Assembly: GCA_944378225.1 (NCBI GenBank) | Contig: CALWGE010000012.1 | Coordinates: forward strand, 1-54,238 | Origin: an uncultured Merdimonas sp. | GTDB lineage: Bacteria; Bacillota; Clostridia; Lachnospirales; Lachnospiraceae | DNA: 54,238 nt | Direction of reading: 5' to 3' | Shown: positions 7,549 to 44,098 of the stretch, piece after piece | Layout of the letters: the number at the start of each line of letters is the position of its first letter | Position numbering within the stretch: the first letter of the stretch is position 1 | Program-made: the position numbers and the translations under genes | The notes under the pieces: generated by a model | Databases searched by the model: none | Told to the model about the DNA's origin: nothing | Seen by the model: only the letters and a program-made list of their open reading frames with translations

Positions 7549-7600
7549 ATAACTGTTCAGCAGCATGTTTGGAGAGCATGTCCGGGGGGAGGCACATCTT

Positions 7601-7969
7601 ATGTACGAAAGCAAAAGAACTTATACAAAAAATACGAGAAGAAGACACGGAAAGAGACAAAAGAATCTGGCGATTTTTATTTCATCCCTTTGCCTTGCTT
7701 TGGCAATAGCGATCTTTTTCGGAAGCTTTCTGTCTGAAGCTGAGGCAAAGGAGCCGGAAGTTACCTATTACAAATATTATACCAATGTAGAGATTCAGCC
7801 TGGCGATACGATTTGGGATTTGGCTGAAGATTATATGGATGTAAATTATGAATCCCGGGAGGATTATATTCGTGAAGTCAAAGAGCTGAATTCCCTGTCG
7901 GATACAGATGCCATTATATCAGGTCAATATCTGATTCTTCCATATTACTCTACAGAATATAAATTATAA
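7601..7969 (+). CDS. SOS-regulated LysM membrane protein, YneA-like division inhibitor
   Basis: A 122-residue protein with a basic N-terminus, one membrane segment at about residues 24-42 and a single LysM domain (QPGDTIWDLAEDY to GQYLILPYY) that would bind peptidoglycan outside the cell. This architecture and size match YneA of Bacillus and its analogues, which halt cell division during DNA damage. The start at 7601 follows a strong GGGGGGAGG; an upstream ATG at 7565 is in frame but lacks a ribosome site. The consensus promoter carries a perfect LexA box in its spacer. The following recombinase gene and the nearby lexA gene recall the lexA/yneA/yneB neighbourhood of Bacillus. The inhibitor function is inferred from architecture and regulation, not from sequence identity. 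Confidence 0.75.
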   Translation: MYESKRTYTKNTRRRHGKRQKNLAIFISSLCLALAIAIFFGSFLSEAEAKEPEVTYYKYYTNVEIQPGDTIWDLAEDYMDVNYESREDYIREVKELNSLSDTDAIISGQYLILPYYSTEYKL

Positions 7970-8004
7970 ATGATACTTTTTTATAAATAATTAAAGTTGT
8001 AAAC

Positions 8005-8056
8005 AAATCCCCATACAGATTCGCAGAAGAGAAATACTGTATGGGGATTTTTATAT
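8005..8056 (+). terminator. Intrinsic terminator after the LysM protein gene
   Basis: A perfect 14-bp stem (8005-8018 with 8037-8050) followed by a T-rich stretch ends the LysM-protein transcript before the recombinase promoter. Confidence 0.8.
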
Positions 8057-8113
8057 AGGATTTTATAGATTACATTTTGACTGCTGACTGGAATTTTTGC
8101 ATTAATGCCACAG

Positions 8114-8142
8114 GATCTCTGTATGAGATAGATGCAGAGATC
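8114..8142. repeat. Inverted repeat in the 383-bp gap before the recombinase gene
   Basis: GATCTCTG at 8114-8121 and CAGAGATC at 8135-8142 form an 8-bp inverted repeat with a 13-base centre. It has no T tract and lies upstream of the recombinase promoter. It could be an operator or a recombination site. Apart from this, the terminator and the promoter, nothing else was recognised between 7970 and 8352. Confidence 0.4.
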
Positions 8143-8172
8143 TATGCGACAAATCCTTGTTTTTCTCATAGA

Positions 8173-8201
8173 TTGACAGGAAAGGCCTGAAATGTTATAC
8201 T
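8173..8201 (+). promoter_or_regulatory. Promoter of the XerS-like recombinase gene
   Basis: TTGACA (8173-8178), 17-bp spacer, TATACT (8196-8201), with an added TG one base before the -10. It implies an AT-rich leader of about 145 bases. Confidence 0.75.
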
Positions 8202-8352
8202 GATACCAGCTGAAATCATCAAAATAACGATCCTTAATTTACCATATATTTTACTGTTAATACTTTAATACTTCTCTTTACTGCGGGATTCCTAAATAAT
8301 CTTAAATAATATAAATATAAAAATTACAGGAAAGGAACGGTTATATATACGT

Positions 8353-9438
8353 ATGGAATATAAAAGTTATCATGAACAGACAGATATGGCCAATATTCAG
8401 AAGCTAAGGGAGATTCTCAAAACACTTCCGCCTTTTGCCCGGGACTATTTTCGTGCAGTGGAACCAACGACATCTACCCGTACACGCATTTCTTATGCAT
8501 ATGATATCCGGGTATTTTTCCGCTTTCTCACAGAGGAAAATCCTTCCTATAAAAACTACAGCACTTCTGATTTTACGGTCTCTGATTTGGATAAGCTGCA
8601 GGCCGTGGATATTGAGGAATACGAAGAATATCTGAAATTGTATCAGCGGGATGAGGAAGACGGCGGAACTGTTTCTGTAACAAACGGCGAAAAGGGACTG
8701 AAACGGAAAATGTCTGCACTCCGCAGTTTTTATGCCTATTATTATAAACGCCAGATGATATCTACAAATCCCACAGTATTTGTAGATATGCCTAAACTTC
8801 ATGAAAAGGCTATTATCCGGCTGGATCCGGACGAGACTGCCCGTCTTCTGGATTTTATCGAACATGGCGGGGATTGTCTGACCGGACAAAAGAAAGTTTA
8901 TTATGAAAAAACAAAGGAGCGGGATCTGGCGATTGTGACATTATTGCTGGGTACAGGAATCCGCGTTTCCGAATGCGTAGGACTTGATATCACAGACATA
9001 GATTTTCACAACAATGGAATTAAGGTAACACGCAAAGGCGGCTCTGAAATGATTGTTTATTTTGGCGAAGAGGTAGAGCAGGCTCTGAAAAATTATATTG
9101 AGGGAAGCCGGAAACTGGTCATTCCCCAGAATGGTCATGAACGCGCTCTCTTCTACTCTACGCAATGCCGCCGCATCAGCATAAGTGCAGTAGAAAATCT
9201 GGTAAAGAAATATTCCCGCCAGGTAACGCCGCTGAAAAAGATCACTCCGCATAAGCTTCGCAGTACATATGGTACAACACTTTATCAGGAAACCGGCGAC
9301 ATCTATCTGGTAGCAGATGTTCTGGGACACAAGGATGTAAATACTACAAGAAAGCATTATGCGGCACAGGATGACGCACGCAGGCGGAGGGCAGCCAAAG
9401 CAGTACGGCTTAGAGAAACTCCCGGCGGTGATTCATAA
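8353..9438 (+). CDS. Tyrosine recombinase, XerS-like
   Basis: A 361-residue site-specific recombinase. The N-terminal SAM-like core-binding domain spans about residues 15-140 and the catalytic domain about 150-345. All catalytic residues are in place: R204 (GTGIRVSE), K228 (TRKGG), H300 and R303 (TPHKLRSTYG), H326 (LGHKDVNTT) and the nucleophile Y336 (RKHYA). The length and the N-terminal LPPFARDYFRAVE...TRTRISYAYD resemble XerS, the single-recombinase dimer-resolution enzyme of some Firmicutes, more than XerC or XerD. The gene has its own promoter and terminator and no phage genes around it, so a housekeeping chromosome-segregation role is more likely than an integrase. The ribosome site (AAGGAA) is unusually far, about 15 bases, from the ATG used. 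Confidence 0.85.
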   Translation: MEYKSYHEQTDMANIQKLREILKTLPPFARDYFRAVEPTTSTRTRISYAYDIRVFFRFLTEENPSYKNYSTSDFTVSDLDKLQAVDIEEYEEYLKLYQRDEEDGGTVSVTNGEKGLKRKMSALRSFYAYYYKRQMISTNPTVFVDMPKLHEKAIIRLDPDETARLLDFIEHGGDCLTGQKKVYYEKTKERDLAIVTLLLGTGIRVSECVGLDITDIDFHNNGIKVTRKGGSEMIVYFGEEVEQALKNYIEGSRKLVIPQNGHERALFYSTQCRRISISAVENLVKKYSRQVTPLKKITPHKLRSTYGTTLYQETGDIYLVADVLGHKDVNTTRKHYAAQDDARRRRAAKAVRLRETPGGDS

Positions 9439-9464
9439 AAATCCTCAAATCAAAGGATACACAT

Positions 9465-9521
9465 AAAGAACCGCAGATGGTATGAAAACATGTTAACTGT
9501 TTTAGCCATCTGCGGTTCTTT
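9465..9521. terminator. Bidirectional terminator between recombinase and DUF3048 genes
   Basis: A perfect 16-bp inverted repeat, 9465-9480 with 9506-9521, bounded by AAA and TTT. It sits between two convergent genes and can serve both. Confidence 0.85.
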
Positions 9522-9568
9522 GTCAAAGGTGAGTACCTTTCTTTATTTTGCCTGTAAATATCTGTCGG

Positions 9569-10693
9569 TTATTCAACTACCAACTGATCCCATACTTCGT
9601 CAGCAACAAAGGCAATGTAGGTCTTTCCGGTATTGATTGTAATTTCATCGCCGGTCATATCATAATAAATGGTGCGATCCGTATCAGAAACCTTGCTCCA
9701 GGTAATGGGAATTGCCTGTCCATTTGTGATATAGTAGCCATCCATTCCTGTCGCCAGACAGTTCCATACCATATATCCGTTGCTGTCCAGCTCGTTGTAG
9801 CTCATTTTCTGAAGAATTACATTCTTAAATGCAAGCTGCTTATTTCCATTGCCCGGATCCAGATGAGCAGAACCGTATTCGGAATACAGATAGGTTCCGG
9901 AAGCCTCATCATAATTCAGCTCAGAATTGTTATGCGGGAATGGAAGATCTACCAGTGTGCAGCTGCTGCTTCCGGCTTCTGTGGAAAGGTCGACAGGATT
10001 GCTCTCAGATGCAAACTCAAAATGCGGCTCTGTAGGCGCATATTCGTTATACTCCCGATCAACACTGGAATTTTTGAAATTCTTGTCCATATCTCCCGGC
10101 AGCATGTATTCCGTGAACTCTCTGGGTTTTCCATTGTTCACACGGGAGAAGGTTCCGCTGAAATGATCTACATACGGATTCTGAAGGAAGCTGTTAATAT
10201 AGAAGGGGCCTCCGTCATGACATACAATGGCATTCCACTCCGGCGCAATCATAAAATTCGTAGGACGGACACTGCGGATGCTTCCCAGCTGATCAATACT
10301 GTCGTAATCTTTTACCATAACCATGAAGCGGGTAATCTGACCATTTTTTGTACTGTTCATCATCTCATAAACAATATCTGCCTGTGTAAGACCGTAATGA
10401 GGAAGTGCTGTCTTTTCGTTGTCAACCATAACTGCAAGCGGCCGCTGATTCTTCAGATCTTCGCTGATCCATTCATTTGTCAGCTCGCTGCGGTACATTC
10501 CTTCGGGAGCTACTTCCTCTTCCACTTCTGCTTCTTCTTCCGTCTCTTCTGTGCCCTCTGCAAGAATTTCATCTTCTGTGGAAAAGGTTTCTGATGTTGC
10601 GGCTTGTTCATCTTCTTTGCCTCCGCAGCCCGCAGCTCCCGTAATACATACGAGACTCAGGGCAAGCAGAAGCCATTTTACGTGCTTTTTCAT
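9569..10693 (-). CDS. DUF3048 domain lipoprotein (YerB-like)
   Basis: A 374-residue predicted lipoprotein. The signal peptide ends in a lipobox (TGAAGC, cysteine 23), followed by an acidic, Glu/Thr-rich linker at about residues 26-65. DUF3048 then begins with NQRPLAVMVDNEKTALPHYG and continues with QADIVYEMM and RSVRPTNFMIAPEWNA. The YerB domain at the C-terminus contains AFKNVILQ and ITINTGKTYIAFV. Proteins of this family sit on the outer face of the membrane; the biochemical role is unknown. The ribosome site is AGGAAGGAA. A LexA-box match at 10814-10827 lies upstream, so SOS control is possible but unproven. Confidence 0.85.
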   Translation of the reverse strand: MKKHVKWLLLALSLVCITGAAGCGGKEDEQAATSETFSTEDEILAEGTEETEEEAEVEEEVAPEGMYRSELTNEWISEDLKNQRPLAVMVDNEKTALPHYGLTQADIVYEMMNSTKNGQITRFMVMVKDYDSIDQLGSIRSVRPTNFMIAPEWNAIVCHDGGPFYINSFLQNPYVDHFSGTFSRVNNGKPREFTEYMLPGDMDKNFKNSSVDREYNEYAPTEPHFEFASESNPVDLSTEAGSSSCTLVDLPFPHNNSELNYDEASGTYLYSEYGSAHLDPGNGNKQLAFKNVILQKMSYNELDSNGYMVWNCLATGMDGYYITNGQAIPITWSKVSDTDRTIYYDMTGDEITINTGKTYIAFVADEVWDQLVVE

Positions 10694-10813
10694 CTTCTGG
10701 TTCCTTCCTGTGATGTGATTTTCTCCAGCATAAAAGAACGGTAACCGTACGCTGAAGGTGTAATAATTTAGTAATAATTATATCACAAAACAAAACAGGA
10801 AACCAGACAAAAA

Positions 10814-10919
10814 TAAACATTTGTTCAAAAAGTTCTGATAACCTCCGGAATCAAAAGAGGTAACATAAAAATATTATGTAAACACATAAAACAGAACAAA
10901 TTTTCTAAACATTTGTTTG
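10814..10919 (+). promoter_or_regulatory. Two LexA boxes upstream of lexA
   Basis: Boxes at 10814-10827 and 10906-10919 share the core TAAACATTTGTT and, read on the minus strand, each match 12 of 14 positions of CGAACRNRYGTTYG. The downstream box abuts and overlaps the lexA -35 hexamer, fitting autorepression. The upstream box is closer to the divergent DUF3048 gene. Confidence 0.7.
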
Positions 10920-10945
10920 CATCTGCCTATATCCTGTGCTATACT
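10917..10945 (+). promoter_or_regulatory. Promoter of lexA
   Basis: TTGCAT (10917-10922), 17-bp spacer, TATACT (10940-10945), about 29 bases before the start codon; the -35 overlaps a LexA box. Confidence 0.7.
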
Positions 10946-10973
10946 AGTTCATATACAAAGGAGGATACAAAAT

Positions 10974-11591
10974 ATGGCATATGGGAAAATTTCCAAAAAG
11001 CAGTCGGAAATTCTTGAATATATAAAATCTCAGATTATCAACAAAGGATATCCCCCTTCGGTTCGTGACATTTGTGAAGCTGTGGAACTGAAGTCAACTT
11101 CTTCTGTTCATTCTCATCTGGAAACATTGGAGAAGAATGGTTACATTCGCAGAGATCCCACGAAACCCAGGGCTATTGAAATTATTGATGATAATTTTAA
11201 TCTGTCCCGCAGAGAGGTTGTCAATGTTCCTATTGTCGGCAAGGTGGCGGCCGGACAGCCGATTCTTGCTGTGGAAAATATCGATTCTTATTTTCCTGTT
11301 CCCATGGAGTTCATGCCGAATGAACAGTGTTTCATGCTTAAAGTACAGGGTAATTCCATGATCAACGCAGGTATTTTTGATGGTGACACCATCCTTGTGG
11401 AACAGAGCCAGACTGCCCGGAACGGCGATATGGTTGTTGCCCTTGTGGATGACTCGGCTACAGTAAAGACCTTTTATCGCGAAGCAGATCATATTCGTCT
11501 GCAGCCGGAGAATGACTCCATGGAACCTATCATTGTAACAGACTGTCAGATTCTTGGCAAAGTGTTTGGTGTATTCCGCTTTTTCCGATAG
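10974..11591 (+). CDS. lexA: LexA repressor of the SOS response
   Basis: A 205-residue LexA. The N-terminal winged helix binds SOS boxes ([33 protein letters not shown]). The C-terminal S24 peptidase domain cleaves itself when RecA is activated. The scissile bond is A93-G94 (KVAAGQP), with catalytic S128 ([10 protein letters not shown]) and K165 (ATVKTFYR). The start at 10974 is set by AGGAGG 9 bases upstream; an in-frame ATG at 10917 lies within the -35 promoter hexamer. Local targets visible here are the LysM protein gene at 7601, lexA itself and possibly the DUF3048 gene. Confidence 0.97.
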
Positions 11592-18681: not shown

Positions 18682-19884
18682 TCATACAGTACCGGTCTGC
18701 TCACGAAATGTTTTCTGCGTTTTCTGCCGGGTAATTTCTACAAGCCCCAGGGCTGTCATATCTACCAGTGTTGTTTTTATCGGATCGCGTTTCAGTTCTC
18801 CTGCAAGAAAATCCATCAGCATTTTCTGCTTTTCCTGTGATTCCAGATCAATAAAATCCACAATTATGATGCCGGACAGATTGCGCAGACGCAGCTGCCG
18901 CGCCGTTTCTTTTGCAGCTTCCAGATTAATCTTAAGAAAAGTATCCTGCTGCTTTTTATGTCCCTGATATTTCCCGGTATTCACATCAATGACCGTCAGT
19001 GCCTCTGTAGGCTGAATAATCAGGTAGCCCCCGGATTTCAGCCATACGCGCTCGTTCAGCGCCTCGTCAATAGCTTTTGCAATACCATAGACACTGTTCA
19101 GAGACGGGGATGTCTGATCGTAAAAGGAAAGCTTTTCTGCATCCTCCGGCTGGTGGGAAAGAAGAAAGGCAGACAGTTCCTCATAAAGCAGAGGATCGTC
19201 TGTCAGAATCCGGGAGAGACGATTTTCGGGCAGACTTCGAAGACGCGCCATATAGGCAGGCGGTTCCCGGTACACAAGAGAAAAACAGGTCTGGTTTCGT
19301 CCCGTTTCCAGAGTTCTCCTGCAAAGAGCAGTCAGACGTGAAAGTTCTTCCCGCAGTTCAGATTCCACTGCATTGGCTGCATTGGTGCGGACGATAATAC
19401 CAAAGTCATCAGACAGGAAGGGTTCGGCAAGTCTGCGCAGACGTTCCCTCTCCTCCGGTTTCAGTTTTGAGGAGATACCCAAGGTTTTTTTCCCGGTAGT
19501 CAGCACAAGATATTTGCCGGCAAAATTCAGATTGCTGGTAACTGTCGGCGCCTTGGTTTTTACCGCTTCACGGCTTACCTGAACCAGGAGCTCGTCCCCC
19601 GGCGCCAGACGGGATGTTTTTTTGGGTGAAGTGTAGAACGGAGTTCCTTTTTCTGCAAGGGAATAGTAACAAAGGATTCCGTCCGCAATTTCGATGAAAG
19701 CCGCGTTAATATTGGAAAGGATATTCTTGACCTTCCCTACATAAATATTTCCAAGTAAAGAAGCGGCCCCGGGCGGAGTACAGCAAAGCTCCGCCGCATG
19801 GCCGTCTTCATAATAAGCGCTTATAATCTGTTCTTTCCCCTGTACGGGAAATCTGGTTACAAGAAAGATTCCCTTCTCTTCCAC
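18682..19884 (-). CDS. rng: Ribonuclease G/E family endoribonuclease
   Basis: A 400-residue RNase G-type enzyme. An S1-like segment spans about residues 38-120 (GNIYVGKVKNILSNINAAF). The catalytic region carries TVIDVNTGKY and GIIIVDFIDL, the metal-binding aspartates of the family. The protein ends soon after the catalytic domain (DMTALGLVEITRQK), with none of the long C-terminal scaffold of E. coli RNase E. The start codon is GTG, preceded by GGAGAGGAG and 3 bases after the DUF2344 gene. Its role is rRNA processing and mRNA decay. Confidence 0.92.
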   Translation of the reverse strand: MEEKGIFLVTRFPVQGKEQIISAYYEDGHAAELCCTPPGAASLLGNIYVGKVKNILSNINAAFIEIADGILCYYSLAEKGTPFYTSPKKTSRLAPGDELLVQVSREAVKTKAPTVTSNLNFAGKYLVLTTGKKTLGISSKLKPEERERLRRLAEPFLSDDFGIIVRTNAANAVESELREELSRLTALCRRTLETGRNQTCFSLVYREPPAYMARLRSLPENRLSRILTDDPLLYEELSAFLLSHQPEDAEKLSFYDQTSPSLNSVYGIAKAIDEALNERVWLKSGGYLIIQPTEALTVIDVNTGKYQGHKKQQDTFLKINLEAAKETARQLRLRNLSGIIIVDFIDLESQEKQKMLMDFLAGELKRDPIKTTLVDMTALGLVEITRQKTQKTFREQTGTV

Positions 19885-42662: not shown

Positions 42663-43037
42663 TCACCCTTTCTCTAATGATAACGTATCTAGTATCTCCC
42701 ACTCTGCTTCCCGGAAACCTACAAGCACCTGTGTGTCTGTTACCACAATCGGGCGTTTTACCAGCATACCGTCTTCGGCAAGCAGTGCATACTGTTCCTC
42801 CTCGCTCATGGAAGGCAGTTTCTCTTTCAGATTCATGCTTTTATAAAGCTGTCCGCTGGTATTGAAAAATTTCTTCAGTGGAAGTCCGCTTTTTTTGTGC
42901 CAGCTCTTCAGCTCCTCTGCAGAAGGATTCTGTTCTTTAATATGACGCGCCTCATAGGCAACTTTATGGCTGTCCAGCCATTTTTTTGCTTTCTGGCAGG
43001 TGGAACAGGGCGGATATTGTAAAAATAATATGCTCAT
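42663..43037 (-). CDS. ArsC/Spx family protein
   Basis: A 124-residue thioredoxin-fold protein with a CxxC pair near the N-terminus (CSTCQKA), the ARHIKEQNPSAEEL linker and the KRPIVVTD block shared by arsenate reductase ArsC and the regulator Spx. Length and the CxxC form match the YffB/Spx-like subgroup of Firmicutes; whether it reduces arsenate, acts on RNA polymerase or does neither is undecided. AAAAAGGAG precedes the ATG. Its promoter region is shared, divergently, with the cobalamin-riboswitch unit and contains a 14-bp palindrome. Confidence 0.8.
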   Translation of the reverse strand: MSILFLQYPPCSTCQKAKKWLDSHKVAYEARHIKEQNPSAEELKSWHKKSGLPLKKFFNTSGQLYKSMNLKEKLPSMSEEEQYALLAEDGMLVKRPIVVTDTQVLVGFREAEWEILDTLSLEKG

Positions 43038-43075
43038 AGATGTATTCTCCTTTTTTAATTTATAATTGTTTTAAA

Positions 43076-43104
43076 TTGACGCTTGCGTCATAAGTTGTTA
43101 TAAT
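43076..43104 (+). promoter_or_regulatory. Strong promoter of the cobalamin-riboswitch unit
   Basis: TTGACG (43076-43081), 17-bp spacer, TATAAT (43099-43104), with TG one base ahead of the -10. Transcription would start near 43111, 17 bases before the riboswitch P1 stem. Confidence 0.85.
43077..43090. promoter_or_regulatory. 14-bp palindrome overlapping the -35 box, candidate operator
   Basis: TGACGC-TT-GCGTCA has perfect six-base arms around a TT centre and covers the -35 box of the riboswitch promoter. It also lies upstream of the divergent ArsC-like gene, so a bound regulator could act on both. Confidence 0.6.
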
Positions 43105-43127
43105 AAACCCGTACAATTCCATAGTAA

Positions 43128-43308
43128 CGTATGAAGTGCCTGTCCGCTTTTCTGTTCGGACAGGAAAAGGGAATCAGGTGAAAATCCTGAGCGATCCGGT
43201 CACTGTAAGCAGGGAGTGTTTCCTTAAATGAATCCATTGTGCAGCAGAACTGCATGAGAAGGAAAAGAAAACACAGAGATCTGCAAGTCAGGAAACCTGC
43301 TTCATACG
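43128..43308 (+). ncRNA. Cobalamin (B12) riboswitch aptamer
   Basis: The conserved core is easily read: GGGAAtcaGGTGaAAaTCC (from 43170), then GAGCGATCCGGTCACTGTAA and the B12 box AAGTCAGGAAACCTGC near the 3' end. CGTATGAAG (43128-43136) and CTTCATACG (43300-43308) pair perfectly over nine bases as the closing P1 stem. It binds adenosyl- or other cobalamins and normally represses B12 synthesis, transport or B12-independent enzyme genes. Here no such gene follows: the unit ends at a terminator about 230 bases later. The expression platform is not resolved; two copies of AGGAAAC (within the B12 box and at 43343-43349) could compete for GTTTCCT at 43358-43364. Confidence 0.93.
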
Positions 43309-43324
43309 AGAGGAGAGACTTCCG

Positions 43325-43477
43325 ATGAAAGTTCAGTTCCTGAGGAAACCGTTTGCTGTTTCCTTCATGTCTGCTTTTTCGGGGCAGGCATTTTTATTTA
43401 TGGAATGCTCGATGTGGAACCGTACAAAAGCTGATTCTGAGAACCAGGGTAAACTGTCAGGTTCTGGCTGGCTGTGA
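43325..43477 (+). CDS. 50-codon ORF directly behind the cobalamin riboswitch
   Basis: An ATG at 43325 follows AGAGGAGAG with 7-base spacing, directly after the riboswitch P1 stem, and opens 50 codons to a TGA at 43475-43477. The product would be small, with a basic start (MKVQFLRKPF), a moderately hydrophobic stretch (AVSFMSAFSGQAFLF) and a polar end rich in Gly and Ser. No family is recognised. It could be a B12-regulated small protein, a leader peptide, or a chance frame in a non-coding RNA; the strong ribosome site is the main evidence for translation. Confidence 0.4.
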   Translation: MKVQFLRKPFAVSFMSAFSGQAFLFMECSMWNRTKADSENQGKLSGSGWL

Positions 43478-43528
43478 CGGCATTCAGTCAGCCACGCCCT
43501 GAATCATTGCCGGGGGATCTCCAGCCAG
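43464..43528 (+). ncRNA. Structured RNA segment downstream of the riboswitch
   Basis: CTGGCTGG (43464-43471) pairs exactly with CCAGCCAG (43521-43528). Inside, ATTCAG (43482-43487) pairs with CTGAAT (43499-43504), with extra GGC/GCC pairing outside it. An alternative pairing TGAC/GTCA (43475-43478 with 43487-43490) competes. Such nested stems with no long reading frame suggest a functional non-coding RNA in the riboswitch unit. The 602-bp gap 43038-43639 holds only this unit. Confidence 0.5.
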
Positions 43529-43534
43529 CTTATA

Positions 43535-43571
43535 AAAGCATCTGTCTTCAGACGCTTTCCGTTTTTTTCTT
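43535..43571 (+). terminator. Terminator of the cobalamin-riboswitch unit
   Basis: AAAGC-A-TCTG-TCTT-CAGA-C-GCTTT (43535-43558) forms a 9-bp stem with one mismatch, followed by CCG and a run of seven T and more Ts. It closes the transcript about 460 bases after the promoter. Confidence 0.8.
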
Positions 43572-43594
43572 TTCTGTTTTCTCCATAACAGAAA

Positions 43595-43613
43595 TAAAAA
43601 GAGCGGATGCTCT
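43595..43613 (-). terminator. Terminator of the Lrp-family gene
   Basis: On the minus strand AGAGC-ATCC-GCTCT (43613-43600) is followed by TTTTTATTT. The GCGGATGCT sequence is repeated nearby in the same region. Confidence 0.6.
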
Positions 43614-43639
43614 GTTGCGGATGCTTTTTTAGTTTTTCC

Positions 43640-44098
43640 TTACAGCCTGAGTCCTTTGATATCTTTAATCCGGGAAAGGATCACATGCTGTGTGCATTCC
43701 ACAATGCCGGGAAGCTGATCCATGGTTTCATACATCAGTTTTTCCAGCTCTTCATTGGAAGAGGCTATTGCATGTACATGAAGCCTGCTGTTCCCGGTCA
43801 CCCGGTAAACCTGTGTAACAGTCCCGTTCTTTTTCAGAAGTTCAGCAACTTCCATGAGAGATTCCGGTTTCGTTTCTATTTCAAAATAACAGGATACAGC
43901 ACCGCTGATTTTCTGAGGATTGATAATTGTTGTATACTCTTCTATCACGCCTTTTTGTTCCAGAGCCTGAACCCGCATCTTCACAGCCACTCTGGAGATT
44001 CCGATTTTCTGACCGATTTCCGAATAGGACATTCTCGCATTCTCAATCAGAAGACTGACGATTTTCTGATCGAGCTCATCCAGACCATCTAAAAACAT
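43640..44098 (-). CDS. Lrp/AsnC family transcriptional regulator
   Basis: A 152-residue regulator. An N-terminal winged helix (LDELDQKIVSLLIENARMSYSEIGQKIGISRVAVKMRV, about 5-60) is joined to an AsnC/RAM ligand-binding domain (SCYFEIETKPESLMEVAELL, VYRVTGNSRLHVHAIA). Such proteins sense amino acids and act as octamers. The start at 44098 follows AAAGGAGG; an in-frame ATG at 44134 is weaker. It is convergent with the riboswitch unit and divergent from the MATE gene, whose promoter lies about 95 bases away, making that pump a candidate target. Confidence 0.9.
   Translation of the reverse strand: MFLDGLDELDQKIVSLLIENARMSYSEIGQKIGISRVAVKMRVQALEQKGVIEEYTTIINPQKISGAVSCYFEIETKPESLMEVAELLKKNGTVTQVYRVTGNSRLHVHAIASSNEELEKLMYETMDQLPGIVECTQHVILSRIKDIKGLRL

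Follow-up and report, generated by a model that had tools for sequence, protein, structure and literature searches.

A candidate noncoding RNA with a built-in cobalamin riboswitch and a covarying domain behind its terminator in gut Lachnospiraceae

The segment from 43111 to 43630 of the DNA analysed here (one stretch of 54,238 nt, hereafter the window) is likely to encode a structured noncoding RNA whose 5' half contains a cobalamin riboswitch. This RNA would be made in a short and a long form, the long form acting as an effector in trans. The initial annotation had suggested a unit at this place that makes either a B12-regulated small RNA or a 50-residue peptide, with a decayed gene as a further possibility. 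Our results favour the small RNA: 19 genomes keep the parts of this RNA and a hairpin located behind the terminator covaries, and the RNA would presumably respond to B12. The proposed parts of the unit, in window coordinates, are as follows.

43076..43104, + strand: promoter, with -35 TTGACG at 43076-43081, a 17-base spacer and -10 TATAAT at 43099-43104 (11 of 12 consensus matches)
43111..43124, + strand: 5' end block of the RNA, GTACAATTCCATAG, able to pair with 43399-43425
43117..43318, + strand: cobalamin riboswitch aptamer (RF00174, 105.2 bits, cut-off 31.5, model positions 1-189 of 189)
43311..43342, + strand: conserved segment of the expression platform (D1), AGGAGAGACTTCCGATGAAAGTTCAGTTCCTG, nearly invariant among relatives
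43325..43477, + strand: 50-codon ORF, a mechanical call with no Pfam match
43367..43395, + strand: intrinsic terminator 1, the proposed B12-dependent stop, an 11-pair stem followed by a T-rich tail
43399..43425, + strand: 5' block of domain D2, TATGGAATGCTC...GTGGAACCGTAC, conserved in 17 aligned copies and a possible partner of the RNA 5' end
43458..43501, + strand: D2 hairpin of 15 pairs, 12 of them with two-sided changes, with the near-invariant loop UGUGACGGCAUUC at 43473-43485
43534..43630, + strand: D3 and final terminator, a long hairpin AAAAGCATCTG...GGATGC followed by TTTTTT (predicted fold)

When the 565 bases from 43076 to 43640 were compared with 61 genomes, some match was found in 21 of them, and in 14 of the 15 remaining members of the genus, as well as in G028 from a second genus, the match continued past the aptamer end (query position 243), reaching positions 266-426. 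With a covariance model of D2 (R1), one copy each was recovered in 15 of the 16 genomes of the window's genus and in all four of the second genus, 19 in total; the single miss within the genus was G002, a genome that is 85% complete. Among 397 sampled genomes of the family, strong matches were confined to the two genera (four genomes sampled), accompanied by two weak ones (E 0.056, at a second place in G010, and E 0.09), and among 295 genomes of the order the model found, besides the window's genome, a single match (E 0.006); both searches used stricter filters and may therefore miss divergent copies. The weak matches (L091, L092 and L093, E 0.006 to 0.09) were taken as chance. A pattern scan of named genomes gave 15 hits, 13 of them copies of the unit, with Lachnoclostridium sp. 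An131 and An138, bacterium 1XD21-13 and a Merdimonas sp. MAG as carriers; hits in a Bacteroidetes MAG and in Methylobacterium are probably due to chance. A mobile or viral origin was considered and rejected: the D2 pattern did not occur in viral contigs, 43396-43640 had no match among plasmid records, and one phage record matches within the aptamer only. This unannotated record from human faeces (MT835545.1, positions 19744-19876) is 79% identical to part of the aptamer, which suggests that a phage may carry a cobalamin riboswitch.

The aptamer is the sole match at gathering level in an Rfam covariance search of the whole window and spans the full length of the RF00174 model, confirming the complete B12 riboswitch that had been recognised here from the sequence alone. 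The same model scores above its cut-off upstream of D2 in the 18 other copies. With gaps scored as differences, the 19 copies share a mean pairwise identity of 0.74 over the aptamer part and 0.55 over D2, as compared with 0.22 in the flank upstream of the promoter and 0.18 in the flank downstream. The near-consensus promoter described earlier is no better than chance as a single site, one match being found where 1.0 is expected in shuffled sequence, but it is borne out by the relatives, as all 19 copies have a -10 hexamer TATAAT, TATACT or TACAAT at this position and 16 have a -35 element starting with TTGAC. The first RNA base is predicted at ~43111. Three further cobalamin riboswitches are present in the window's genome, each followed by a gene (apparently for cobalt uptake, for uptake through a substrate-binding protein and for cobalamin synthesis, from translations read by eye), which makes the riboswitch at 43117-43318 the odd one out.

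Applied to 17 of the 19 copies, RNAalifold recovers one D2 hairpin of 15 pairs, with two-sided changes in 12. In this alignment, which was not fitted to the structure, yet from which the structure was itself derived, 96.1% of 254 cells are paired and 49 are two-sided; the pairing, the two-sided cells and the covariation score were each reached by 0 of 500 shuffles, and the number of pair types by 5 of 500. Controls in which the partner was slid by one to three columns gave 17.5-45.2% paired cells. The loop UGUGACGGCAUUC is identical in 19 of 19 copies except for one base in L010, and the conserved loop comprises 10 bases in the consensus fold. The nested stem-loop region noted in the initial annotation (43464-43528) is therefore real, in the form of the covarying hairpin at 43458-43501, and D2, judged from the pattern of its sequence changes, is a structured RNA domain. 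A pseudoknot within D2 (GAAUGC/GCAUUC), read by eye, has one pair broken in the second genus and in L014 and is not claimed.

Compared across relatives for covariation as against codon conservation, the unit shows covariation in the D2 hairpin and no conserved ORF in the 19 copies, whether translated from the ORF position or from an ATG in D2. This bears directly on the proposal that the unit encodes a short regulated peptide, either from the 50-codon ORF or from the D2 ATG. The ATG at 43325 is preceded by a purine-rich stretch, and the ORF had been described as having a strong ribosome site; the frame does exist mechanically, but only one of the 19 copies begins it with a start codon (14 have AAG) and the frame closes at many different places across the copies. 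The GGAGAG taken for the ribosome site belongs to a conserved segment, GGAGAGACTTCCG (GGAGAAACTTCCG in one copy), which the 18 copies lacking a start codon at this position have as well, and terminator 1 lies inside the ORF. We conclude from these comparisons that the 50-codon ORF is a chance ORF. As for D2, the domain opens with an ATG in all 19 copies (GTG in one), and part of the product is common to near relatives, just as the RNA itself is; the products range from 2 codons in L016 and 4 in L010 to frames that stay open to the end of the stretch in others, no consistent ribosome site was seen by eye ahead of this ATG in the 19 copies, and the changes in the D2 hairpin follow base pairing. 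A regulated peptide is therefore a very improbable product of this unit.

A second alternative is that the unit is what remains of a riboswitch-gene pair after decay, or that its riboswitch serves a gene lying further downstream. The neighbours in the window, an AsnC-family regulator in antisense followed by a MATE gene, look unrelated to B12, as would be expected of such a remnant, and the next larger downstream ORF lies in sense in four relatives (L050, L051, L052 and L054). This ORF is in antisense in 14 of 19 copies, however, and no sense gene behind the riboswitch is common to more than two of the 19 neighbourhoods. Decay would moreover have to be reconciled with the fact that both sequence and structure behind the terminator are kept in two genera, and we regard this alternative, in either of its versions, as most unlikely. 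An RNA gene with its own conserved domain is the reading that we follow below.

Between the aptamer and D2, within the 50-codon ORF, lies terminator 1, which had been missed at first and is the only terminator-like site on the + strand found by a consensus scan of 43000-43700. Its stem is kept in the 17 aligned copies through invariant positions or one-sided changes, with no two-sided changes among them, and its T-tract is interrupted in four copies (L010, L012, L013 and L014). A predicted pairing of the B12 box with the 3' arm of this terminator, at -7.5 kcal/mol or lower in 18 of 19 copies, is suggestive of a possible antiterminator. Five copies (L006, L008, L009, L011 and L016) have an extra ~25-90 bases between terminator 1 and D2, located at about 1808-1895 in L006, which indicates that this joint tolerates insertions.

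The expression platform resembles those of some other cobalamin riboswitches. A related segment, GGCTTCCGAGAAAAGCAGTTCC, is found behind riboswitch L034 of the window's own genome, and of the other cobalamin riboswitches (14 loci taken, 13 usable) seven carry a related GGCTTCCG..AAAAGC.GTTC, L034 being one of these and L027 having one change in it; a terminator-like stretch then follows. L034 resembles the riboswitch at 43117-43318 in its aptamer core (80% identity over 94 query bases) and in having a related platform before a terminator, and platforms similar to that of L034 occur in L022-L027. The two differ in what they precede: ThiF-like and precorrin methyltransferase-like genes, read by eye as a cobalamin-synthesis operon, in the case of L034, and D2 in the case of the unit. 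A platform hairpin ACUU/AAGU (GCUU/AAGC in L034) was read by eye only, and RNAalifold on the 17 aligned copies preferred GGAG/CUUC and did not recover it. In this class of cobalamin riboswitches a regulatory hairpin contacts the aptamer, and we infer that the D1 hairpin is this hairpin and that the switch at 43117-43318 is related to that of L034.

Another pairing, overlooked in the initial annotation, may connect the 5' end of the RNA with the start of D2. The first 13 bases, GTACAATTCCATA, do not differ among the 19 copies, and for every copy a duplex of this 5' end with the start of D2 is predicted, at -9.5 to -13.6 kcal/mol. Of 1000 partner shuffles each, 1, 4, 1 and 34 matched this duplex in the four copies tested, in which no other stretch of the same RNA pairs as well with the 5' end. 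Since the 5' block is invariant and only the D2 side varies, the pairing is without covariation support. The predicted helix would exist in the long form alone, would hide the 5' end of the RNA and may thereby stabilise it.

Regarding the 3' end, the segment 43530-43640 folds as a single hairpin of -45.6 kcal/mol with TTTTTT at 43625-43630, and the T-run at 43571, at which an intrinsic terminator had been placed, is internal to this longer hairpin. The RNA therefore probably ends near 43630, and not at 43571, if this predicted fold is correct; the consensus terminator scan of 43000-43700 detected neither end. D3 differs by clade. In local folding, a hairpin with a CCTGCAGCT-like (CTGCAG-like) loop, counted when at least five of the six motif bases are unpaired, occurs at the D3 position in 9 of 19 copies, while L037 and L089 have the motif in less clear folds; such a hairpin is absent from L010 and L012-L015, and the window likewise lacks a loop of this kind. 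L002 and L005 have long closing stems like those of the window's D3, by eye only.

Together, these parts suggest the following mechanism. A housekeeping promoter would transcribe the unit constantly. With adenosylcobalamin bound, the aptamer would close, terminator 1 would form and an RNA of ~285 bases, ending near 43395, would be released. When cobalamin is scarce, readthrough to ~43630 would produce a long RNA containing D2 and D3, in which the 5' end may pair with D2 and its covarying hairpin, the long terminator hairpin coming last. That the ligand would turn the long form off, and not on, is deduced from the order of aptamer, terminator and D2 and from the usual behaviour of the class; cobalamin riboswitches are termed off switches in PMC11477304. 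The long form would be the effector, acting in trans through D2 on an RNA or a protein, which is the least certain step of the scheme, the simplest assumption being that the D2 loop has a protein or an RNA as its partner.

In a search for complements of the D2 loop, the exact 11-mer GAATGCCGTCA had 62 matches in 16 genomes, 14 of which are the RNA itself and 48 lie elsewhere; this count exceeds that of the reversed control pattern, which had 27. Forty-seven of the 48 fall within mechanically called ORFs; the remaining one is intergenic, and no gene in sense orientation lies within 300 bases of it. Recurrence was greatest for antisense matches within one coding region, seen in four genomes, and for a group of four matches in ABC-type proteins, of which two occupy the same position in sense. 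No recurring mRNA target or gene start for the D2 loop emerged among exact complements in these 16 genomes; as ORFs were called as the longest frame, a leader could have been concealed.

The closest known way of working is that of EutX from Enterococcus faecalis and Rli55 from Listeria, for which PMC5821096 describes a constitutive promoter and an adenosylcobalamin riboswitch that gives a short form with ligand and a long form without it, the 3' domain of the latter acting as an effector in trans. The unit has the same order of elements on one strand, namely promoter, cobalamin aptamer, terminator and a further conserved 3' RNA domain. Its 3' domain is different, however, and the aptamer scores as RF00174, whereas eut riboswitches are described as class IIb (PMC11477304). 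The most direct version of this likeness would be that the long RNA sequesters an ANTAR-domain antiterminator, as a counterpart of the eut RNA, and ANTAR proteins are indeed encoded in 15 of the 16 genomes of the genus. An ANTAR site is a dual hairpin, in which neighbouring hairpins have A..G.. hexaloops. Such paired hexaloop hairpins within 30 bases of each other were found in 0 of 19 copies (330 bases from D2 on), single A..G.. candidates occur in 8 of 19, and the conserved D2 loop has 10 bases, not 6. No eut gene was recognised beside the unit, among neighbours of which the XerS-like, YneA-like, LexA, ArsC and AsnC proteins were named by models and the rest were judged by eye or left unnamed. 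Because dual hexaloops are missing from all 19 copies, membership in the EutX/Rli55 group fails on the effector site tested, and an ANTAR sponge becomes improbable although ANTAR proteins are widespread in the genus; the analogy with the eut-linked RNA drawn in the initial annotation is apt as a way of working but does not extend to membership.

Other precedents concern riboswitches that precede RNA genes. In Listeria, a B12 riboswitch controls an antisense RNA to pocR, and the unit is similar in that a cobalamin riboswitch would control an RNA rather than a protein gene. The antisense neighbour of the unit differs between genomes, which makes a fixed antisense target, as in the pocR case, unlikely. 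In Clostridioides difficile, c-di-GMP riboswitches lie before the antisense RNAs RCd11 and RCd12, together with an orphan riboswitch (PMC11477304); these cases are alike in that a riboswitch precedes a noncoding RNA or nothing known, and differ in ligand and output.

The genomic place of the unit in its relatives involves two further features of the window.

8138..8172, no strand: dif-like palindrome of the window's chromosome (pattern search)
8353..9438, + strand: gene for a XerS-like tyrosine recombinase of 361 aa (Pfam Phage_integrase, 1e-32)

The best NCBIfam model for the recombinase is XerS, at 199.8 bits and thus below the cut-off of 267. In the XerS/difSL module, as outlined in PMC5357621, a single recombinase of ~356 aa adjoins its site; in the window the protein has 361 aa and the palindrome lies near its gene. 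Every one of the 16 genomes of the genus has a palindrome like AGATCTATGCGAAAAACATGTGTTTGTCGCATAGATCT, with a single place in 14 of them and two in the other 2; by analogy with the XerS/difSL module it is taken here for the dif site. In the window, the palindrome and the XerS-like gene are part of a block (7565-11591) that also contains a YneA-like LysM protein (7565-7969) and LexA (10917-11591), an arrangement suggesting that the window probably covers the chromosome terminus region.

The XerS-like gene lies upstream of the unit and divergent from it in 16 of 19 carriers, its start being 63-333 bases from the RNA start in 15 of these and 1.8 kb away in G679. A dif-like site follows the RNA start by 0.54-0.76 kb in 12 of 19 carriers (at most 5 of 34 mismatches) and by 5.3-6.1 kb in three, and the best place in G028 has 10 mismatches. 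In the window the XerS-like gene is 34 kb from the RNA unit, and in the window's genome, G008 and G015 the unit occupies three other neighbourhoods. In these three genomes and G002, the XerS-like gene starts ~0.1-0.2 kb from the palindrome, and the four form one clade in the recombinase tree with moderate support (85/84). An ancestral position beside xerS is probable for the unit, which would have left it once or more and been kept in three of the four genomes of this clade.

Several neighbourhoods show rearrangements of their own. Approximately 5 kb of other genes, one of them response-regulator-like by eye, separate the unit from the dif-like site in L003, L004 and L006 (wide loci L051, L052 and L054), as if inserted near dif. 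L037, from G679, alone has two ORFs between the XerS-like gene and the unit; by eye, one is lipoprotein-like and the other begins like a helix-turn-helix protein. In L002 (G008:C22, a Merdimonas-like genome), on the minus strand, the RNA unit stands directly before a second cobalamin riboswitch (matches at 1685-1889 and 1076-1272), and ABC-transporter-like genes, by eye, lie further downstream.

Given this common position, a tie in cis might exist between the RNA and either the XerS-like recombinase or the dif-like site, through transcription towards dif, for instance, or a shared divergent promoter region. The divergent arrangement at short distance and the dif-like sites behind the RNA start, as detailed above, speak for such a tie. 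Against this, the common position may reflect plain descent, and in the window's genome, G008 and G015, the clade shared with G002 (in which no copy was detected), the unit lies elsewhere and is nevertheless conserved. That the unit has moved in one clade and remained conserved suggests a function independent of location, and we therefore give the cis tie little credence as compared with an RNA that acts in trans.

D2 and D3 do not correspond to any family of Rfam 15 at gathering level, either in the window or in the loci of the 18 relatives. At E values up to 10 over 43020-43660, all matches other than the aptamer were below their gathering scores; examples such as Phe_leader (minus strand, 30.9 bits as compared with 55) were taken as chance. 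A literature search covering titles and abstract openings found no description of this RNA, an absence that is weak evidence. It is about an even call, in our judgement, whether the unit represents an undescribed family of B12-responsive effector RNAs of gut Lachnospiraceae, in which a constitutively started RNA would extend, at low adenosylcobalamin alone, into a domain closed by pairing between 5' and 3' parts and bearing a near-invariant loop, and would act in trans by neither ANTAR sequestration nor antisense overlap. Such a family may have originated once a duplicate of a cobalamin-operon riboswitch had come to stand next to the XerS-like gene and the dif-like site, and may later have become free of that place.

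A cobalamin riboswitch is commonly taken to switch the gene that follows it, and here the riboswitch is followed by RNA with its own covarying domain in two genera and 19 species-level genomes. The case illustrates that a riboswitch without a gene can be distinguished from decay by covariation beyond the terminator. As the RNA is single-copy and carried by named isolates, it is directly testable. If the proposed reading is true, B12 shortage would send out a trans-acting RNA signal in these bacteria, outside the known eut and pocR cases.
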